Below the pieces are notes generated by a model. It worked only from the letters and a program-made list of their open reading frames with translations. It was not told the origin of the DNA and searched no databases. A DNA stretch of 44,874 nt from Planctomycetales bacterium 4484_113 (GTDB lineage Bacteria; 4484-113), in contig MVCR01000005.1 of the NCBI GenBank assembly GCA_002050035.1, positions 1 through 44,874 of the forward strand, written 5' to 3'. Of the stretch, positions 373-40,508 are shown in pieces; the first letter of the stretch is position 1, and every line of letters begins with the position of its first letter. The position numbers and the translations under genes were made by a program.

Positions 373-978
373 ATGATCAACGGAATCGTCATTTCTGGAT
401 GCTCAGGAGTCGGAAAGACCACTGTTATCAAGCACCTGCTCCGTCTGCACCCCGATTTCGCCTTCTCGGTGAGCTACACCACCCGTCCACCTCGTGCCGA
501 CGAGGTCGATGGAAAGGACTATCATTTCATCAGCCGCGAGGAGTTCGAACGGAAGGCGCGCGAGCGCTTCTTTCTCGAATGGGAGGAAGTCTACGGCTGC
601 TACTACGGCACGCCAAAGCTGCCTCCCGATGAGGAAGAAGGGACCACACGGGTGGTCATATTCGAGCTCGACTCCAAGGGCGCTCTCAATCTCCAGCAGA
701 AATTCCCCCAGTTCACAACCATCGCCATCATCCCACCGTCGGTGGATGCAATCGGGGCTCGCCTTCGCGCACGGGGAAGCGAAACTGACGAGAGCATCGC
801 GGAACGCCGACGCCATATCGCGGAAGAGCTCCGTCGCCTGCAGCACCTCTCATACTGTGTCGTGAATGACGATATTGAGGCGACGGCACGTGAGATCGAG
901 ACCATTATTCTCGCCCAGTTCCACCGGCTGCCCTTTTTGGGGGCGAAGATAGATGAATTACTGGAGCTTCTGGCTTAG
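373..978 (+). CDS. gmk: Guanylate kinase
   Basis: P-loop SGCSGVGKTT, SVSYTTRPPR and DGKDYHFISREEF are hallmark guanylate kinase motifs. Confidence 0.96.
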   Translation: MINGIVISGCSGVGKTTVIKHLLRLHPDFAFSVSYTTRPPRADEVDGKDYHFISREEFERKARERFFLEWEEVYGCYYGTPKLPPDEEEGTTRVVIFELDSKGALNLQQKFPQFTTIAIIPPSVDAIGARLRARGSETDESIAERRRHIAEELRRLQHLSYCVVNDDIEATAREIETIILAQFHRLPFLGAKIDELLELLA

Positions 979-993
979 GAGGCACGGCCAATA

Positions 994-1461
994 ATGGACA
1001 AGGACAAGAACATCACAGAACGTGACACCCTGCTGTATCCACTGCTGGAGGATCTGCTACAGCGGATACCGAGCAAGTTCGAGGTTGTGGTTCTGGCATC
1101 ATTGCGAGCGCGCGAGATTATGCGCAAGCAGAAGTTGGGCGCCTCCTTCGACGGCGAGCTGGACGCTGACGTGGTCAGCGAACAGGAGACGCTGAAACCT
1201 CTGTCCCGTGCGCTTGCCGATATCGCAGAAGGCAAACTGGACCGCGAGAAGATGTACCTTCTCGAATACCTAGAGAGCTTTCGTCGGGGAGACGAGGATA
1301 TCGCCGCACCACCAGTACTGGAAGAAGACTCCGTCATCGCGCAGCATCCGTCGAAAGAAGCCACGGGCGACCTCCCACTCGCACTGCCCGCCGAAGCGGA
1401 GGCGAGCGCATCTGTGGCGGAGGAAGAACTCAAAAAGAGTGAAGATACCGACGAAGAATAG
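994..1461 (+). CDS. rpoZ: DNA-directed RNA polymerase omega subunit with acidic C-terminal extension
   Basis: N-terminal YPLLEDLLQRIPSKFEVVVLASLRAREIM matches the omega core; located between gmk and coaBC as in many bacteria. Confidence 0.85.
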   Translation: MDKDKNITERDTLLYPLLEDLLQRIPSKFEVVVLASLRAREIMRKQKLGASFDGELDADVVSEQETLKPLSRALADIAEGKLDREKMYLLEYLESFRRGDEDIAAPPVLEEDSVIAQHPSKEATGDLPLALPAEAEASASVAEEELKKSEDTDEE

Positions 1462-2686
1462 ATGTGTCCTGCTGGGCGTATGCGGCGGGATTGCTGCCTA
1501 CAAGGCCTGTGAAGTTGTCAGGCTGCTTGTCAAGGCAGGTGTGGACGTTCACGTGCTTATGACGCCCAACGCCACACGGTTCGTCTCTCCACTCACCTTC
1601 GCCGCACTTTCCGGCTATCCAGTCGCGGTGGAAGCTTTCCCGCCTTCCGCAAGCGAAGCGGGATCGAGCAGCACCTATGATCCTCTGGCGCACATAACGC
1701 TCTCGCATCAGGCTGAGTTGCTCTTGTTGGCTCCCGCGACGGCTAACACGCTGGCCAAGCTGGCAGCGGGGATTGCGGACAACCTTCTTCTCTCCACCGC
1801 CCTAGCCTTCTCAGGACCGGTAGTTTTTGCGCCGGCAATGAACTCCCGCATGTACGCGAATCCGGCGACGCGCGACAACATCGCCAAGCTCAAAGCGCGC
1901 GGCTGCATTGAGGTGGAAGCCGAGATGGGTGCACTGGCCTCGCTGGAATCGGGCATGGGTCGACTGGCTGAACCCGCCAGAATCGTACAGCGCGTCCTGC
2001 ACGAGCTTAGGCGCGAAGGCAGTCCACTGGAAGGCCGGCGCATCCTTGTGACCGCAGGTGGAACCCGGGAGTACTTCGATGATATCCGCTTCATCTCCAA
2101 CGCCTCCACCGGCACACTGGCTCTTTGCTGTGCTGATGAGCTCTATCTTGCAGGTGCCGAGGTCGAGCTGATAGCGGCGCCAAGCGTGGCGGAAGATGAG
2201 CTCGCATCACGTGCGTATCCCACCATTCGAGTAACTAGCGCTGAGGAGATGCTTACCCAGGTGCGCGAGCGCGCAATTGGGCTCGATGTCCTGCTGATGC
2301 TCGCTGCCGTCGCTGATTACCGTCCGCCACGCCGCAAGGGCAAAATCAAGAAGGATGACGCAGTGGAACTTGATTTGCGGCTGACTCGCACGGAAGACAT
2401 CTTGAGCTCCCTGGAGGAAGGGAAGCCCAACGTGCGCATAGGCGCGTCACTGGAAACCGAGGAAGTCGAGCAGAGAGCCGCGGCAAAGCTGACCGCGAAG
2501 AACCTCTCTGCTATCGTGGCGGTTGAGCTCGATCCTGAAGCGCCGCCGTTCGGGCAGCGCTCCTTGCGGGCCGGGATCCTCACTCCTCACGAGTGGCTGC
2601 TGCCCCTGTCCCGGCGCGACAAGATTGAACTGAGCCGCGAGATTGCACATCTAATCACCAGACTGTTGAATCCAAAGGAGCAATAA
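1439..2686 (+). CDS. coaBC: Bifunctional phosphopantothenoylcysteine decarboxylase / phosphopantothenate-cysteine ligase
   Basis: VLLGVCGGIAAYKACEVVRLL, APAMNSRMYANPATRDNIAKL (CoaC) and RRILVTAGGTREYFDDIRFISNASTG (CoaB). GTG start overlaps the rpoZ end by 23 nt. Confidence 0.95.
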   Translation: MKIPTKNRCVLLGVCGGIAAYKACEVVRLLVKAGVDVHVLMTPNATRFVSPLTFAALSGYPVAVEAFPPSASEAGSSSTYDPLAHITLSHQAELLLLAPATANTLAKLAAGIADNLLLSTALAFSGPVVFAPAMNSRMYANPATRDNIAKLKARGCIEVEAEMGALASLESGMGRLAEPARIVQRVLHELRREGSPLEGRRILVTAGGTREYFDDIRFISNASTGTLALCCADELYLAGAEVELIAAPSVAEDELASRAYPTIRVTSAEEMLTQVRERAIGLDVLLMLAAVADYRPPRRKGKIKKDDAVELDLRLTRTEDILSSLEEGKPNVRIGASLETEEVEQRAAAKLTAKNLSAIVAVELDPEAPPFGQRSLRAGILTPHEWLLPLSRRDKIELSREIAHLITRLLNPKEQ

Positions 2687-2689
2687 CCA

Positions 2690-3631
2690 ATGAACAGGTA
2701 TCTAACCCTGCTGCTGATTGCATTGGCGATAACGGCTGCGGGCTTACTCCCTGCGCACGCAGCCCCCGATACCGTCCTGTCAACCAAGGACGGTCAGAGC
2801 TACACGCTGGAGGACTTCCACATCTTCTATATGAAGCAACTGGGAGCCCGCGGGCTCATCACCTTCCTGGAGCAGATGGTGGTCTATGAGCAGGCCAAGA
2901 AACAGGGGCTCGCTCCGACAAAGGAAGAAACAGCTGAGTTCATCAAGAACGATATGACTCCAGAGATCTACAAGGGCTTCCAGCAGATCTACTCGCAGAA
3001 GGCACTCAATAAGTTCGTTGAATACACGATTATGAATCGGAAATACCGCAAGTATCTCGAGCAGAAATTCATCAAGGAAAAGGGCATCAACATCACTGAC
3101 GACGACGCACGGAAGTACTACGTGAAGAACATCGACAAGTTTCAGCTACCGGACCGCGTGCAGCTTTCTATCATCAGCGTGGAGGACGAGAAGACCGCGC
3201 AGGAGGTCATGGCACGTCTGGAGAAAGGGGAGGACTTCAACCAGCTCGCCGCCATCTACAACGCTGACGAGGAACTGCGCGCGAACAGTGGCTACGTAGG
3301 CGTTATTGGCAAGGGAATGGGATTACCGGAACCCCTTGAGAAGGTGGCGTTCAGCCTTGAGCCGGGGAATCACTCGGGCATTATCCGCGGCACGCTTTTC
3401 CACGTCATCTTCGTGCATAATCGGTTCCCGGCGAAGAACTACGAGTTTGCTGACGTCAAAGAGGACATCAAGAAGTTCCTCGAGGAGCAGGAAGTGGACC
3501 GCTACATCTCCGAGCATCTCAACAAGTTGTACCAGGAACAACTGCCCAAATTCGAGATAAAGGCTGAGCTATTCAAGGCGGGAGAAGATAAAGTGCCGAA
3601 GGGCGGCGCAGGGCCGGTGCCCTCGGAATAG
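2690..3631 (+). CDS. Secreted peptidylprolyl isomerase, PpiC/SurA/PrsA type
   Basis: Signal peptide; parvulin core VQLSIISVEDEKTAQEVMARLEKGEDFNQLAAIYNADEELRANSGYVGVIGKGMGLPEPLEKVAFSLEPG. Confidence 0.85.
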   Translation: MNRYLTLLLIALAITAAGLLPAHAAPDTVLSTKDGQSYTLEDFHIFYMKQLGARGLITFLEQMVVYEQAKKQGLAPTKEETAEFIKNDMTPEIYKGFQQIYSQKALNKFVEYTIMNRKYRKYLEQKFIKEKGINITDDDARKYYVKNIDKFQLPDRVQLSIISVEDEKTAQEVMARLEKGEDFNQLAAIYNADEELRANSGYVGVIGKGMGLPEPLEKVAFSLEPGNHSGIIRGTLFHVIFVHNRFPAKNYEFADVKEDIKKFLEEQEVDRYISEHLNKLYQEQLPKFEIKAELFKAGEDKVPKGGAGPVPSE

Positions 3632-3655: not shown

Positions 3656-5827
3656 ATGACCTCCCCTGCCGGAAGCCAATCGGGACAGCCTGCAGTGAAG
3701 CTGGTTGAGGTACATCTGCTTGCCCACAAGATCTCCTTTCGGAGCTTCACCTATAGCGTGCCACCATGGTTGCCGGTCGCGCGTGGCGAAGTGGTAGCAG
3801 TTCCATTTCGCCGGAAGATCGAAGCGGGCATCGTAAGCGGGTCGGCCAAGCAAACCCCTAAGGGGCCTGCACTGCCCATTCTCGGACGCCTGCAGACACC
3901 TGGAACCCAACCCCAGAGCTTCGGTCACTTGCTGCTAACACTGGCTCACTACAATCTTGCCACTCCGGGAGAGCTGTTTGGCGATGTCGCTTTCGGGCGA
4001 CCTGAACGGAGAATAAACTTGCTGTTCTCGCGGCGGGAGGTTTCCCGACCGCAGAAGCATCTGGAAGAAGCGTACAGCGTGCTCCGTCTGCTTGCTCCCC
4101 GTGACCGCAACCGCATCACACAGGCTCTTACCAAGAAGCTGTTTCAGGCGCTGACACTGGACGAGCTGATCGACCTCGTCGCCAGCGGACTCATTGCCGT
4201 CGAGGGTGAGCTCGGTCTTGCGCCGTCCGCCCACGGGAAGCCGTTAGTGCACGCGCGCCGAAAGCTCCAGCAGCAACTCTTCGTCAGCGGCGCTTCAGGC
4301 GTACCCCTGCCGGCGAACAGCTTCCTCTTTCAAGACGCCTCGGAGTTTATTCAGAAACTGAGAGGTCCCAGCCACGTTTCCGACCACCTTAATCTCAGTG
4401 TGCGGCATATGAATTGGCGAAAGGTCGTCGATGGCGCTCTCGCGCGAGAACTGAGCGGTAGTCTACGCCGACTACTCATTCTCCCCAGCGAGTACTTCGT
4501 AGAGAGGTTTTTCAGAAGATTACCGAGAGCCATCTCCGGACAAGTGCTTCGCTTCGAGCCCGAAGCAAAGGCAGCCGCCTTCAATGGACTTTCACGCCGG
4601 TTGTCGCAGGACGAACCACTGCTTGTAGTGGGCAAGCGGGCGGCGCAGTTTCTCCTCTTGTACGGCTCATTTGACGATGTCGTGCTGTTCGATCCCACAA
4701 ACGATAATCTGCGCTCCGACCGATTCCCGCGATACGACACGATAGTGAACCTCTACCTGATTTCACTCCTGACTGGCACCCGCCTTACGCTGATCCCGCT
4801 TACGCCCTGCCCGCCGATCCTCAAAGAACCTGTACCGGTGCCGCACGTGGTGAACCTCCCCTCGACCGCCGGCGAGCGGATTGATGCGATAGTTGACTAC
4901 GTCACAGAGCAGGCTCGGTGTGGGCGCAAGCTGCTCGTCTACAACAATGCACTGGGCAGCGGGCAAGCAATCACCTGCACCACGTGCGGCGAGGCACTTC
5001 TCTGCCCTCACTGTGGACATCAGCTTGCCCACTCGCACCCGGAGCACCGGTTCTTCTGCACGCATTGCGGATTCAGCGAACCAGCCATGATCTGCGGAAA
5101 CTGCGGCAGTCGGGAATTCGCAGTTCGCGTTATTGGCGTTGATGGGCTGGCGCGGCGTGTGCGCAAGGCGTTGCGTGATCCGGTGCGTGAATGCACGCCG
5201 CGGGTGGGCGCTCTCTACGACGCACGGCGTCGGCGCATCCGCGAAGCCAACCTGGGGCGCACCGACGTCCTCATCGGGACGAGCACGCTCTTCCAACCTC
5301 TTGCCTTCTACCGTCCGGAGGAAATTGTGCTGGTGGCGCAGGAGCATACCCGAGCGGGGAAGACCGGCGTACCTGAGGAATCGACTCTGTGGGAGCTCTC
5401 GCGACTGGCAGCGCTTTATGGAACAGCCATGACGAAACTCACTGTACTGGCCGCGCCACCCATGACGACTTCTCTTCTCGCACGCACCGGTCCGTGCCGA
5501 TTGCAGACCATGGCGGACGAAGACGAACTGCGCAAGGAGTTCTTGCTCCCGCCCCATAGCCCTCTGATCGAATTCTCTGCATACGGCTCTCAGGAATCCA
5601 GAGTCGGCAAGTTCGTAGGCGAAATGCTGGGACAGCTTGAATACACACAGCGGGTCCGTCTTGTCGAGTGCGGCCCAGTGCATCGTACGCCGAGCGAAGA
5701 ACACTTCGTGATACGAGGGCGCTTCCTGCTGGCAACACCTTCCTTCTCCTTGCTGCGCGAGCTTCGCATTCAGGGCAAGCGGCAGCGAGTGGACATTGTC
5801 TACGCCCCTCGTTACTTCCTGCCCTGA
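3656..5827 (+). CDS. priA: Primosomal protein N' (PriA) homologue with degenerate helicase motifs. Start may be GTG at 3695.
   Basis: N-terminal PriA domain (VHLLAHKISFRSFTYSVP...GEVVAVPFRRKIEAGIVSG); eight-Cys Zn module CTTCGEALLCPHCG...FFCTHCGFSEPAMICGNCGS; C-terminal PriA domain. Walker A and DEEH not found at the aligned positions. Confidence 0.85.
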   Translation: MTSPAGSQSGQPAVKLVEVHLLAHKISFRSFTYSVPPWLPVARGEVVAVPFRRKIEAGIVSGSAKQTPKGPALPILGRLQTPGTQPQSFGHLLLTLAHYNLATPGELFGDVAFGRPERRINLLFSRREVSRPQKHLEEAYSVLRLLAPRDRNRITQALTKKLFQALTLDELIDLVASGLIAVEGELGLAPSAHGKPLVHARRKLQQQLFVSGASGVPLPANSFLFQDASEFIQKLRGPSHVSDHLNLSVRHMNWRKVVDGALARELSGSLRRLLILPSEYFVERFFRRLPRAISGQVLRFEPEAKAAAFNGLSRRLSQDEPLLVVGKRAAQFLLLYGSFDDVVLFDPTNDNLRSDRFPRYDTIVNLYLISLLTGTRLTLIPLTPCPPILKEPVPVPHVVNLPSTAGERIDAIVDYVTEQARCGRKLLVYNNALGSGQAITCTTCGEALLCPHCGHQLAHSHPEHRFFCTHCGFSEPAMICGNCGSREFAVRVIGVDGLARRVRKALRDPVRECTPRVGALYDARRRRIREANLGRTDVLIGTSTLFQPLAFYRPEEIVLVAQEHTRAGKTGVPEESTLWELSRLAALYGTAMTKLTVLAAPPMTTSLLARTGPCRLQTMADEDELRKEFLLPPHSPLIEFSAYGSQESRVGKFVGEMLGQLEYTQRVRLVECGPVHRTPSEEHFVIRGRFLLATPSFSLLRELRIQGKRQRVDIVYAPRYFLP

Positions 5828-24184: not shown

Positions 24185-24550
24185 TCACTCCCCCATGAGC
24201 CGCTTCCTGATCCGCTTCACTTCCTCCTCCGGCCGGAGATGTACCTCAACTTCATCCACTTCGACTCCGTAGTCTCTCTCCAACCGCGCACGCAGCTCAC
24301 GAGCACTCGATTTGAGAGCCATCCGAGCCACACTGCTGGAGACCATCAGCACCAGAATCCGTCGACTCTGCCCGGCATCCACCTCTTCGCGGATGACGGA
24401 AGGGGTTGCATATGGCCGCAAGGACTCGTCCAGAGCAAGAAAGGCGAGGTGCAGTTCCTGCTCCTCAGCCGCGAGCTGCTTCACGCGCTTGGGCAGGGAA
24501 TCCCAATAGCGGCGCAAGATATCTCCGAGGCGGCTCTCCTCAGTCATCAC
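24185..24550 (-). CDS. Small conserved-type protein, possibly DUF721/DciA-like
   Basis: 121-aa ORF; C-terminal part ILVLMVSSSVARMALKSSARELRARLERDYGVEVDEVEVHLRPEE weakly resembles the DUF721 core. Confidence 0.5.
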   Translation of the reverse strand: MMTEESRLGDILRRYWDSLPKRVKQLAAEEQELHLAFLALDESLRPYATPSVIREEVDAGQSRRILVLMVSSSVARMALKSSARELRARLERDYGVEVDEVEVHLRPEEEVKRIRKRLMGE

Positions 24551-39086: not shown

Positions 39087-40508
39087 TTGGATGTAGAGAG
39101 GGAAAGCGTCGAATTTCTGGGAAGAGTGCTACCGCACTCGCAGGAGCTTGAGCAGGCGGTTCTGGGAGCTATTCTTCAGGATGCGCAAGACGCTCTGCCG
39201 GTGGCGATGGAGATTCTCACCCACGAGAGTTTCTACTATCCCGCACACCAGATAATTTTCGATACGCTTACTCGGCTACATCTACGCGGCGTGCCGCCCG
39301 ACCCGCTGGCAGTGATTGAAGATTTGCGCAGCCGCGAGCTTCTGGAGCGGGTAGGAGGCGAGAGCTATCTCTACGCCCTAGTGACGGCGGTTCCTGATGC
39401 CAGCGCGGTAGAAACGCACGCCCAGGTGTTGCGTGAGAAGGAACTGTTACGCAGGCTGATTTCTGAATCCAACGTGTTGCTCAAGGAGGCTTACAGCCAG
39501 GAGAAGAGCGTGCAAGAGATCCTCGATGACGCCGAGCGTCGCATTCTGCAGATTGACGCCGGACTCATGAGTGGTCGCTTCTCGGATTTGGATACAGCAT
39601 TACGCGAGTTCATGTCCGCCTACGAGGAGGAGCAAAGGGTTGGCCCCGATGGCCAGATGATATCCACGCTGAAAAAGCTGCGCGGTCTTGATTCGGGCTA
39701 CCCGCAGCTTGACCGCCTGCTCGGAGGGTTCAAGCGAGGCGACCTTATCATTGTGGCGGCTCGACCGGGCGTGGGCAAGACAGCACTGGTTCTCAACTTC
39801 GCGCACCGCATCGCCACCCGTGGCAAGGCTGTCGGTATCTTCTCCATGGAGATGGGCAAGGAGCAGGCTGCAATGCGGCTCCTTGCCATGACCTCTGGCA
39901 TTTCTAGCAGTCGCATTGACCGGGGAGAGTTCAACCGCGAGGAGATGAGCACTATCCGACGCTGCTACGAGGAGATGGCTTCCCTGCCCATCTACATCGA
40001 CGACTCCTCGATGCTCAACATCCGAGCGCTTAAGAACCGCGCCCGACGCCTGTGGGCACAACATCAGGTGGAGATAATTATGGTAGACTACCTCCAGCTG
40101 ATGGAAGGCATGCGTCCGGGCGAAGAAGGCAGGGTGCAGGAGGTAACGGAAATCAGCCGCGGGCTCAAGCAAATCGCCCGCGAACTGAAGATACCGCTCA
40201 TAGCTTGCAGCCAGCTCTCGCGCCAGGTGGAACACCGTTCAGACCGCAAACCCTTGCTATCCGACCTGCGAGAATCCGGCTCCATCGAGCAGGACGCGGA
40301 TGTGGTGATTATGATGTACCGCGAGGACTACTATGAGCTTCAGCGTGGCGAGCACGCGACTTCAGAGGTTATGGGCAGCGTGGTCGATCTGAACATCGCC
40401 AAGCACCGCAACGGTCCAACCGGACAGGTCAAGCTAACCTACTTGCATCCTTACCTGCGCTTCGAGCCGTACGCCAGCGAGGATATCCCCATCGGCGACT
40501 ACGAATGA
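39087..40508 (+). CDS. dnaB: Replicative DNA helicase DnaB
   Basis: LPHSQELEQAVLGAILQD, LIIVAARPGVGKTALVLNFA, IFSMEMGKEQAAMRLLAM, IIMVDYLQLM, DLRESGSIEQDADVVIMMYRED. Confidence 0.97.
   Translation: MDVERESVEFLGRVLPHSQELEQAVLGAILQDAQDALPVAMEILTHESFYYPAHQIIFDTLTRLHLRGVPPDPLAVIEDLRSRELLERVGGESYLYALVTAVPDASAVETHAQVLREKELLRRLISESNVLLKEAYSQEKSVQEILDDAERRILQIDAGLMSGRFSDLDTALREFMSAYEEEQRVGPDGQMISTLKKLRGLDSGYPQLDRLLGGFKRGDLIIVAARPGVGKTALVLNFAHRIATRGKAVGIFSMEMGKEQAAMRLLAMTSGISSSRIDRGEFNREEMSTIRRCYEEMASLPIYIDDSSMLNIRALKNRARRLWAQHQVEIIMVDYLQLMEGMRPGEEGRVQEVTEISRGLKQIARELKIPLIACSQLSRQVEHRSDRKPLLSDLRESGSIEQDADVVIMMYREDYYELQRGEHATSEVMGSVVDLNIAKHRNGPTGQVKLTYLHPYLRFEPYASEDIPIGDYE

Follow-up and report, generated by a model that had tools for sequence, protein, structure and literature searches.

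PriA restarts DNA replication that has stalled. Degenerate helicase motifs are a feature of the actinobacterial branch of PriA (NCBIfam PRK14873 series). Outside Deinococcus-Thermus, good conservation of the PriA motor has been reported (PMC4504706), and the PriA of that group is the best experimental precedent for the protein described here. PriA of D. radiodurans binds forks with a Kd of 108.5 nM, compared with 52.1 nM for E. coli PriA; its ATPase activity was not measurable, its unwinding activity was negligible, and it contacts DnaB (PMC4504706). According to work cited in that paper, a conservative exchange of K for R in E. coli PriA abolishes ATPase activity. A second kind of known system bears on relatives of the locus: slippage at runs of nine A or nine T is efficient in vivo, and such runs are used by T. 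thermophilus dnaX and by Shigella mxiE (PMC1088944, PMC5009743).

The window, that is, the whole stretch of 44,874 nucleotides of Planctomycetales bacterium 4484_113 analysed here, encodes a protein that its fold, domains and gene order identify as a PriA orthologue and that lies outside the helicase equivalog (Table 1). The 3'DNA-binding domain (3'BD) was found above the gathering score, with 29.7 bits against a cut-off of 22.7 (E 6e-7). TIGR00595, the helicase equivalog model for priA, matched with an E value of 9e-15, but the 54 bits obtained did not pass its cut-off of 230. The best PDB sequence matches were PriA chains, and these chains as well as the PriA models matched mainly over residues 408-676. 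Inserted in lobe 2 is a zinc module with eight Cys (residues 441, 444, 450, 453, 468, 471, 480 and 483), all of them invariant across the nine aligned members of the phylum. In a tenth member, G008, seven of the eight are present.

An AlphaFold model built from 31 sequences (mean pLDDT 80.8, pTM 0.83) had the overall PriA fold, and the nine best PDB hits in Foldseek were all PriA (E 9e-29 to 8e-19); a model from nine sequences (pLDDT 71, pTM 0.60) gave the identical top nine. The TM-scores to these structures were moderate (0.43-0.56), and therefore the arrangement of the lobes is uncertain. The order gmk-rpoZ-coaBC-ppiC-priA also occurs in both relatives from family 1, and G009 retains ppiC-priA. 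Domains, fold and gene place thus support orthology with PriA. A sequence-only reading of the window had already claimed a PriA homologue with an ORF intact over 723 codons, all eight zinc-binding Cys and the N- and C-terminal PriA domains; the profile, E-value, PDB and Foldseek matches confirmed the homologue, and the ORF, the Cys, the 3'BD and the C-terminal domain were all recovered.

Table 1. Features of the window and of the priA genes of three relatives (G007, G008 and G009)
Feature	Position	Strand	Remarks
gmk, rpoZ, coaBC and PpiC-type gene, upstream of priA	373..3631	+	order kept in relatives
priA pseudohelicase CDS, 723 aa	3656..5827	+	ORF, profile, PDB-sequence, model and Foldseek evidence
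3'DNA-binding domain (3'BD), PF17764	3737..3979	+	
Probable winged-helix region, residues ~134-186	4055..4213	+	model secondary structure; domain assigned by analogy with E. coli PriA
Helicase lobe 1 scaffold without motif I, residues ~223-385	4322..4810	+	
VRHMNWRKVVD, aligned to GVTGSGKTEVY	4400..4432	+	Walker A lost
DPTN replacing DEEH (motif II)	4691..4702	+	first Asp kept
Zinc module	4976..5104	+	eight Cys
IGTS, retained motif V core	5273..5284	+	T542 invariant
SRLAALY replacing QVAGRAGR (motif VI)	5399..5419	+	RLxxLY-like pattern kept in relatives
LPP motif and C-terminal domain	5546..5812	+	
DciA-like helicase-loader candidate (PF05258)	24185..24550	-	beside ruvC/ruvA; 24.1 bits, cut-off 24
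DnaB replicative helicase	39087..40508	+	
T9 run in priA of G007	L138:907-915		
T9 run in priA of G008	L146:9074-9082		
T9 run in priA of G009	L122:17400-17408		

When aligned with E. coli PriA and with PriA from 45 other families, the window protein was found to be without GxTGSGKT, DEEH, GSATP and QxxGRxGR. Motifs I, II, III and VI are thus missing, and the protein does not carry the motif set of an SF2 helicase. The residues quoted in the sequence-only reading were as stated, with VRHMNWRKVVD at 4400 and DPTN at 4691-4702, and the altered QVAGRAGR region that it had placed at about 5396-5430 was found to contain ELSRLAALY from 5393. Its equation of VRHMNWRKVVD with the Walker A position held in one alignment, whereas the 45-family alignment placed motif I at a neighbouring segment; neither segment contains a P-loop. 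An intact Walker A or DExH elsewhere would have argued against the loss, but a scan of the whole protein for GxxxxGK[ST] and DExH detected neither. The sole GKT (residue 568, RAGKTG) was rejected as a hidden Walker A, for it has no upstream Gly and is absent from the relatives.

Some positions of the motor were nevertheless invariant in the nine aligned phylum members: P277 (motif Ia), G326 (GTR), D346 (motif II), T542 (motif V) and R583, the first Arg of GRxGR in motif VI, the end of which is represented by Y588 of the new RLxxLY-like pattern. Read against what is known of SF2 helicases, this suggests that residues lining the DNA path are preferentially kept and that most residues of the ATP site are lost. 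The invariance of D346 and R583, together with the retained lobe fold, could also mean that nucleotide is still bound or hydrolysed at an unrecognised, remodelled site. This is very improbable, since a P-loop is lacking altogether, replacement has affected all of motifs I, III and VI, and even the conservative K to R exchange cited for the E. coli enzyme is enough to abolish ATPase activity. A loss of ATPase activity in the window protein is what its sequence would predict.

The loss is clade-wide and not peculiar to the window genome. In the sample of this small, uncultured phylum, which comprised 10 genomes from four families including the window genome, every PriA was without the helicase motifs (10/10) and none scored above the TIGR00595 cut-off. 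A second, canonical priA, which would have made the copy in the window a paralogue, was sought in the window genome (77% complete) and the nine relatives and was not found; two further TIGR00595 hits in G000, one in an 881-aa frame of C80 and the other in a 735-aa frame of C89, were read as Mfd and RecG from frame length and the matched region across genomes. The ten PriA proteins form a single group in the tree (99/96), with identities of 37-39% within the family and about 22% across the order, and the motif loss is most simply explained as one event in an ancestor shared by the whole phylum. The priA gene of G008 (L073) is extremely diverged; its sixth zinc Cys is replaced (CPEGHG), and the adjacent His may substitute for it.

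Losses were also seen elsewhere. In a coarse, domain-wide survey with one PriA from each of 45 other families, motifs I and II were both missing in four (G022, G035, G044 and G054), and G046 was without motifs II and VI; these genes with lost or damaged motifs lie at L098, L028, L019, L097 and L031, respectively. Four of 45 in so coarse a sample suggests that losses of the PriA motor are commonplace. A single clade of all losers, including these five, was not rejected by the AU test (p 0.64), a test weakened by long branches and by the shared missing motifs. The test shares the pull of the long branches, and the motifs may have been lost once or several times.

What could a PriA without a motor do? 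The window protein is very probably a pseudohelicase that serves as a fork-binding scaffold and helps to reload DnaB without unwinding. The 3'BD and the lobes would bind stalled or repaired forks, where the protein would neither hydrolyse ATP nor unwind the lagging arm. It would instead act as a landing platform that returns DnaB to the fork, probably together with DciA, so that the likely loading route would consist of the PriA scaffold, DciA and DnaB; the lagging strand would be cleared by other helicases, of the RecG and UvrD types. By analogy with D. radiodurans PriA, fork recognition and passive recruitment of DnaB are the most likely activities.

Candidates for these partners were found in the phylum. 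DnaB is present in nine of the 10 genomes, UvrD-family proteins in all 10, and RecG-sized proteins are present as well. The DciA-like protein of the window has homologues in both family 1 relatives, and three family 2 genomes gave DciA hits below the cut-off; in most of the phylum, DciA appears to be highly diverged or undetectable. PriC was sought in the phylum genomes and not found, and the search for a DnaC/DnaI-type loader (PF01695) revealed none beyond frames of about 450-500 aa, which we take to be DnaA, and one protein of the IS21 type. A link between motif loss and DciA was considered and discarded, as four of the five other genomes whose PriA is damaged contained DciA, and so did most of those whose PriA is intact.

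The extreme divergence of the protein could also indicate that it has moved from replication restart to another DNA-binding task, such as regulation or repair with RuvABC/RecG. This is very unlikely, because the gene stands in the ordinary priA order, encodes the sole PriA found in the genome and keeps all DNA-binding and zinc parts of PriA, and because DnaB and a DciA candidate are present. A scaffold for replication restart thus remains the preferred reading.

A PriA that has lost its catalytic motifs is here kept by selection. The dN/dS of priA was 0.137 in the one close pair available (G001 and G002; dS ~1.2), a value that is supportive rather than precise, with 0.144 in lobe 1, 0.108 in lobe 2C and 0.25 in a short stretch of lobe 2N. 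Neighbouring genes of the same pair gave 0.142 (coaBC), 0.147 (ppiC), 0.060 (gmk) and 0.080 (alr). The chance of 723 stop-free codons by composition alone is about 5e-11. The identity of priA was 37-38%, whereas gmk, coaBC, ppiC and alr reached about 50-67%; such faster divergence than in most neighbours would be expected if part of the protein had come under relaxed constraint. Missing core motifs and this divergence would also fit a gene whose PriA function is lost and whose ORF is on its way out, but that is the least credible reading of all, as the ORF is intact and syntenic across the genera of family 1, all 10 genomes share the loss, dN/dS is near that of coaBC and ppiC and the eight zinc Cys are invariant in nine members; a pseudogene was rejected on conservation and dN/dS. 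Since selection persists and a conserved RLxxLY occupies the QxxGRxGR site, the gene is not decaying. The sequence-only reading had argued for a selected non-helicase PriA and had suggested a survey of related genomes and dN/dS among its checks, both of which came out in its favour. The window PriA is a real, selected, phylum-wide pseudohelicase, and a whole phylum without a PriA motor is a natural experiment that separates fork recognition from unwinding. The role of the PriA helicase becomes a question for comparative and biochemical tests.

The most novel lead comes from the relatives. In G007, G008 and G009, three genomes from the two most divergent families, the 3'BD and the remainder of PriA do not share a frame. 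Each of the three genes changes to the -1 frame at G-TTTTTTTTT-GC, a sequence that is identical among them and occupies one and the same position of the alignment (FFF). This position matches strand 120-126 of the window model, after the 3'BD and before the winged-helix region. The normal frame ends 7 to 42 codons past the T9 run, giving a protein with the 3'BD only, and the -1 frame runs on for 585-645 codons. Against PF17764, the N-terminal piece of G007 scored above the cut-off, that of G009 just below it, and that of G008 was weak. The pieces of the G009 gene lie on two contigs with a 27-base overlap and were joined by hand. The genes of families 1 and 2, with that of the window among them, have a single frame at this position and no run.

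The T9 run is likely to be a slippage site, as judged from its sequence. As a control, 614 kb sampled from the three genomes was scanned; 24 A/T runs of at least eight (counted per strand) lay in continuous long frames, and no run of this length other than those in priA marks a frame switch, the G009 priA run itself being missed because it lies at a contig end. In G008 (64% GC), the T9 run of priA is the sole A/T run of at least eight in 66 kb. The control scan and the rarity of such runs in G008 therefore make a shared assembly error behind the switch unlikely, as far as can be judged from the assemblies. In G009, a T7 at L117:11403 also has a switch pattern, with 166 codons open upstream and 376 downstream in the other frame; it may reflect two genes or another recoding site. 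Short hairpins that might stimulate frameshifting were present downstream of the T9 run in all three genes, but none was better than in shuffled sequences (z -1.2, +1.0 and -0.5). The literature searched contained no account of priA recoding.

On balance, we lean towards one priA for two proteins in the two most divergent families, a free 3'BD (~130-170 aa) and the full-length scaffold, made by way of the conserved slippery T9. Normal reading would yield the 3'BD-only product, and the full-length protein would arise from mRNA that carries a single additional U, or through a shift of the ribosome to the -1 frame. Alternatively, the gene may have undergone fission, with the second part starting at an internal codon, but its first candidate start codon lies well downstream of the T9 run and at no shared place. 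If slippage at T9 is productive, priA would join dnaX among the replication genes with two products and would be a new example of the kind, its fork-end sensor freed from the dead motor.

The split genes resemble Thermus thermophilus dnaX and Shigella mxiE, in which slippage of RNA polymerase at coding runs of A9 or T9 leads to two products; the longer product of mxiE requires an extra U, as would priA of the relatives (PMC1088944, PMC5009743). This likeness applies to G007, G008 and G009 and not to the window, and it is a likeness of sequence. The window PriA shares domain order, zinc module and fold with E. coli and Klebsiella PriA (PDB 8fak, 4nl4 and 6dgd), but these are active SF2 helicases with GVTGSGKT, DEEH, GSATP and QVAGRAGR. 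It also differs from actinobacterial PriA, which fits the remark in the sequence-only reading that the window does not otherwise look actinobacterial: its best PRK14873 match (34 bits, cut-off 812) was below TIGR00595 and several PRK05580 models, so that general PriA models outscore those of the actinobacterial branch. The protein is most like that of D. radiodurans, an orthologue without working Walker A and B that keeps its DNA-binding parts and is likewise proposed to aid DnaB reloading without unwinding (PMC4504706). D. radiodurans belongs to a different phylum, and function was measured there, whereas the window protein is known from sequence and model. Moreover, the P-loop of D. radiodurans PriA is mildly degraded (Lys of GKT to Arg), whereas the P-loop, DExH and motifs III and VI of the window protein are unrecognisable. 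This kind of pseudohelicase is already known; new are the lineage and the completeness of the loss.
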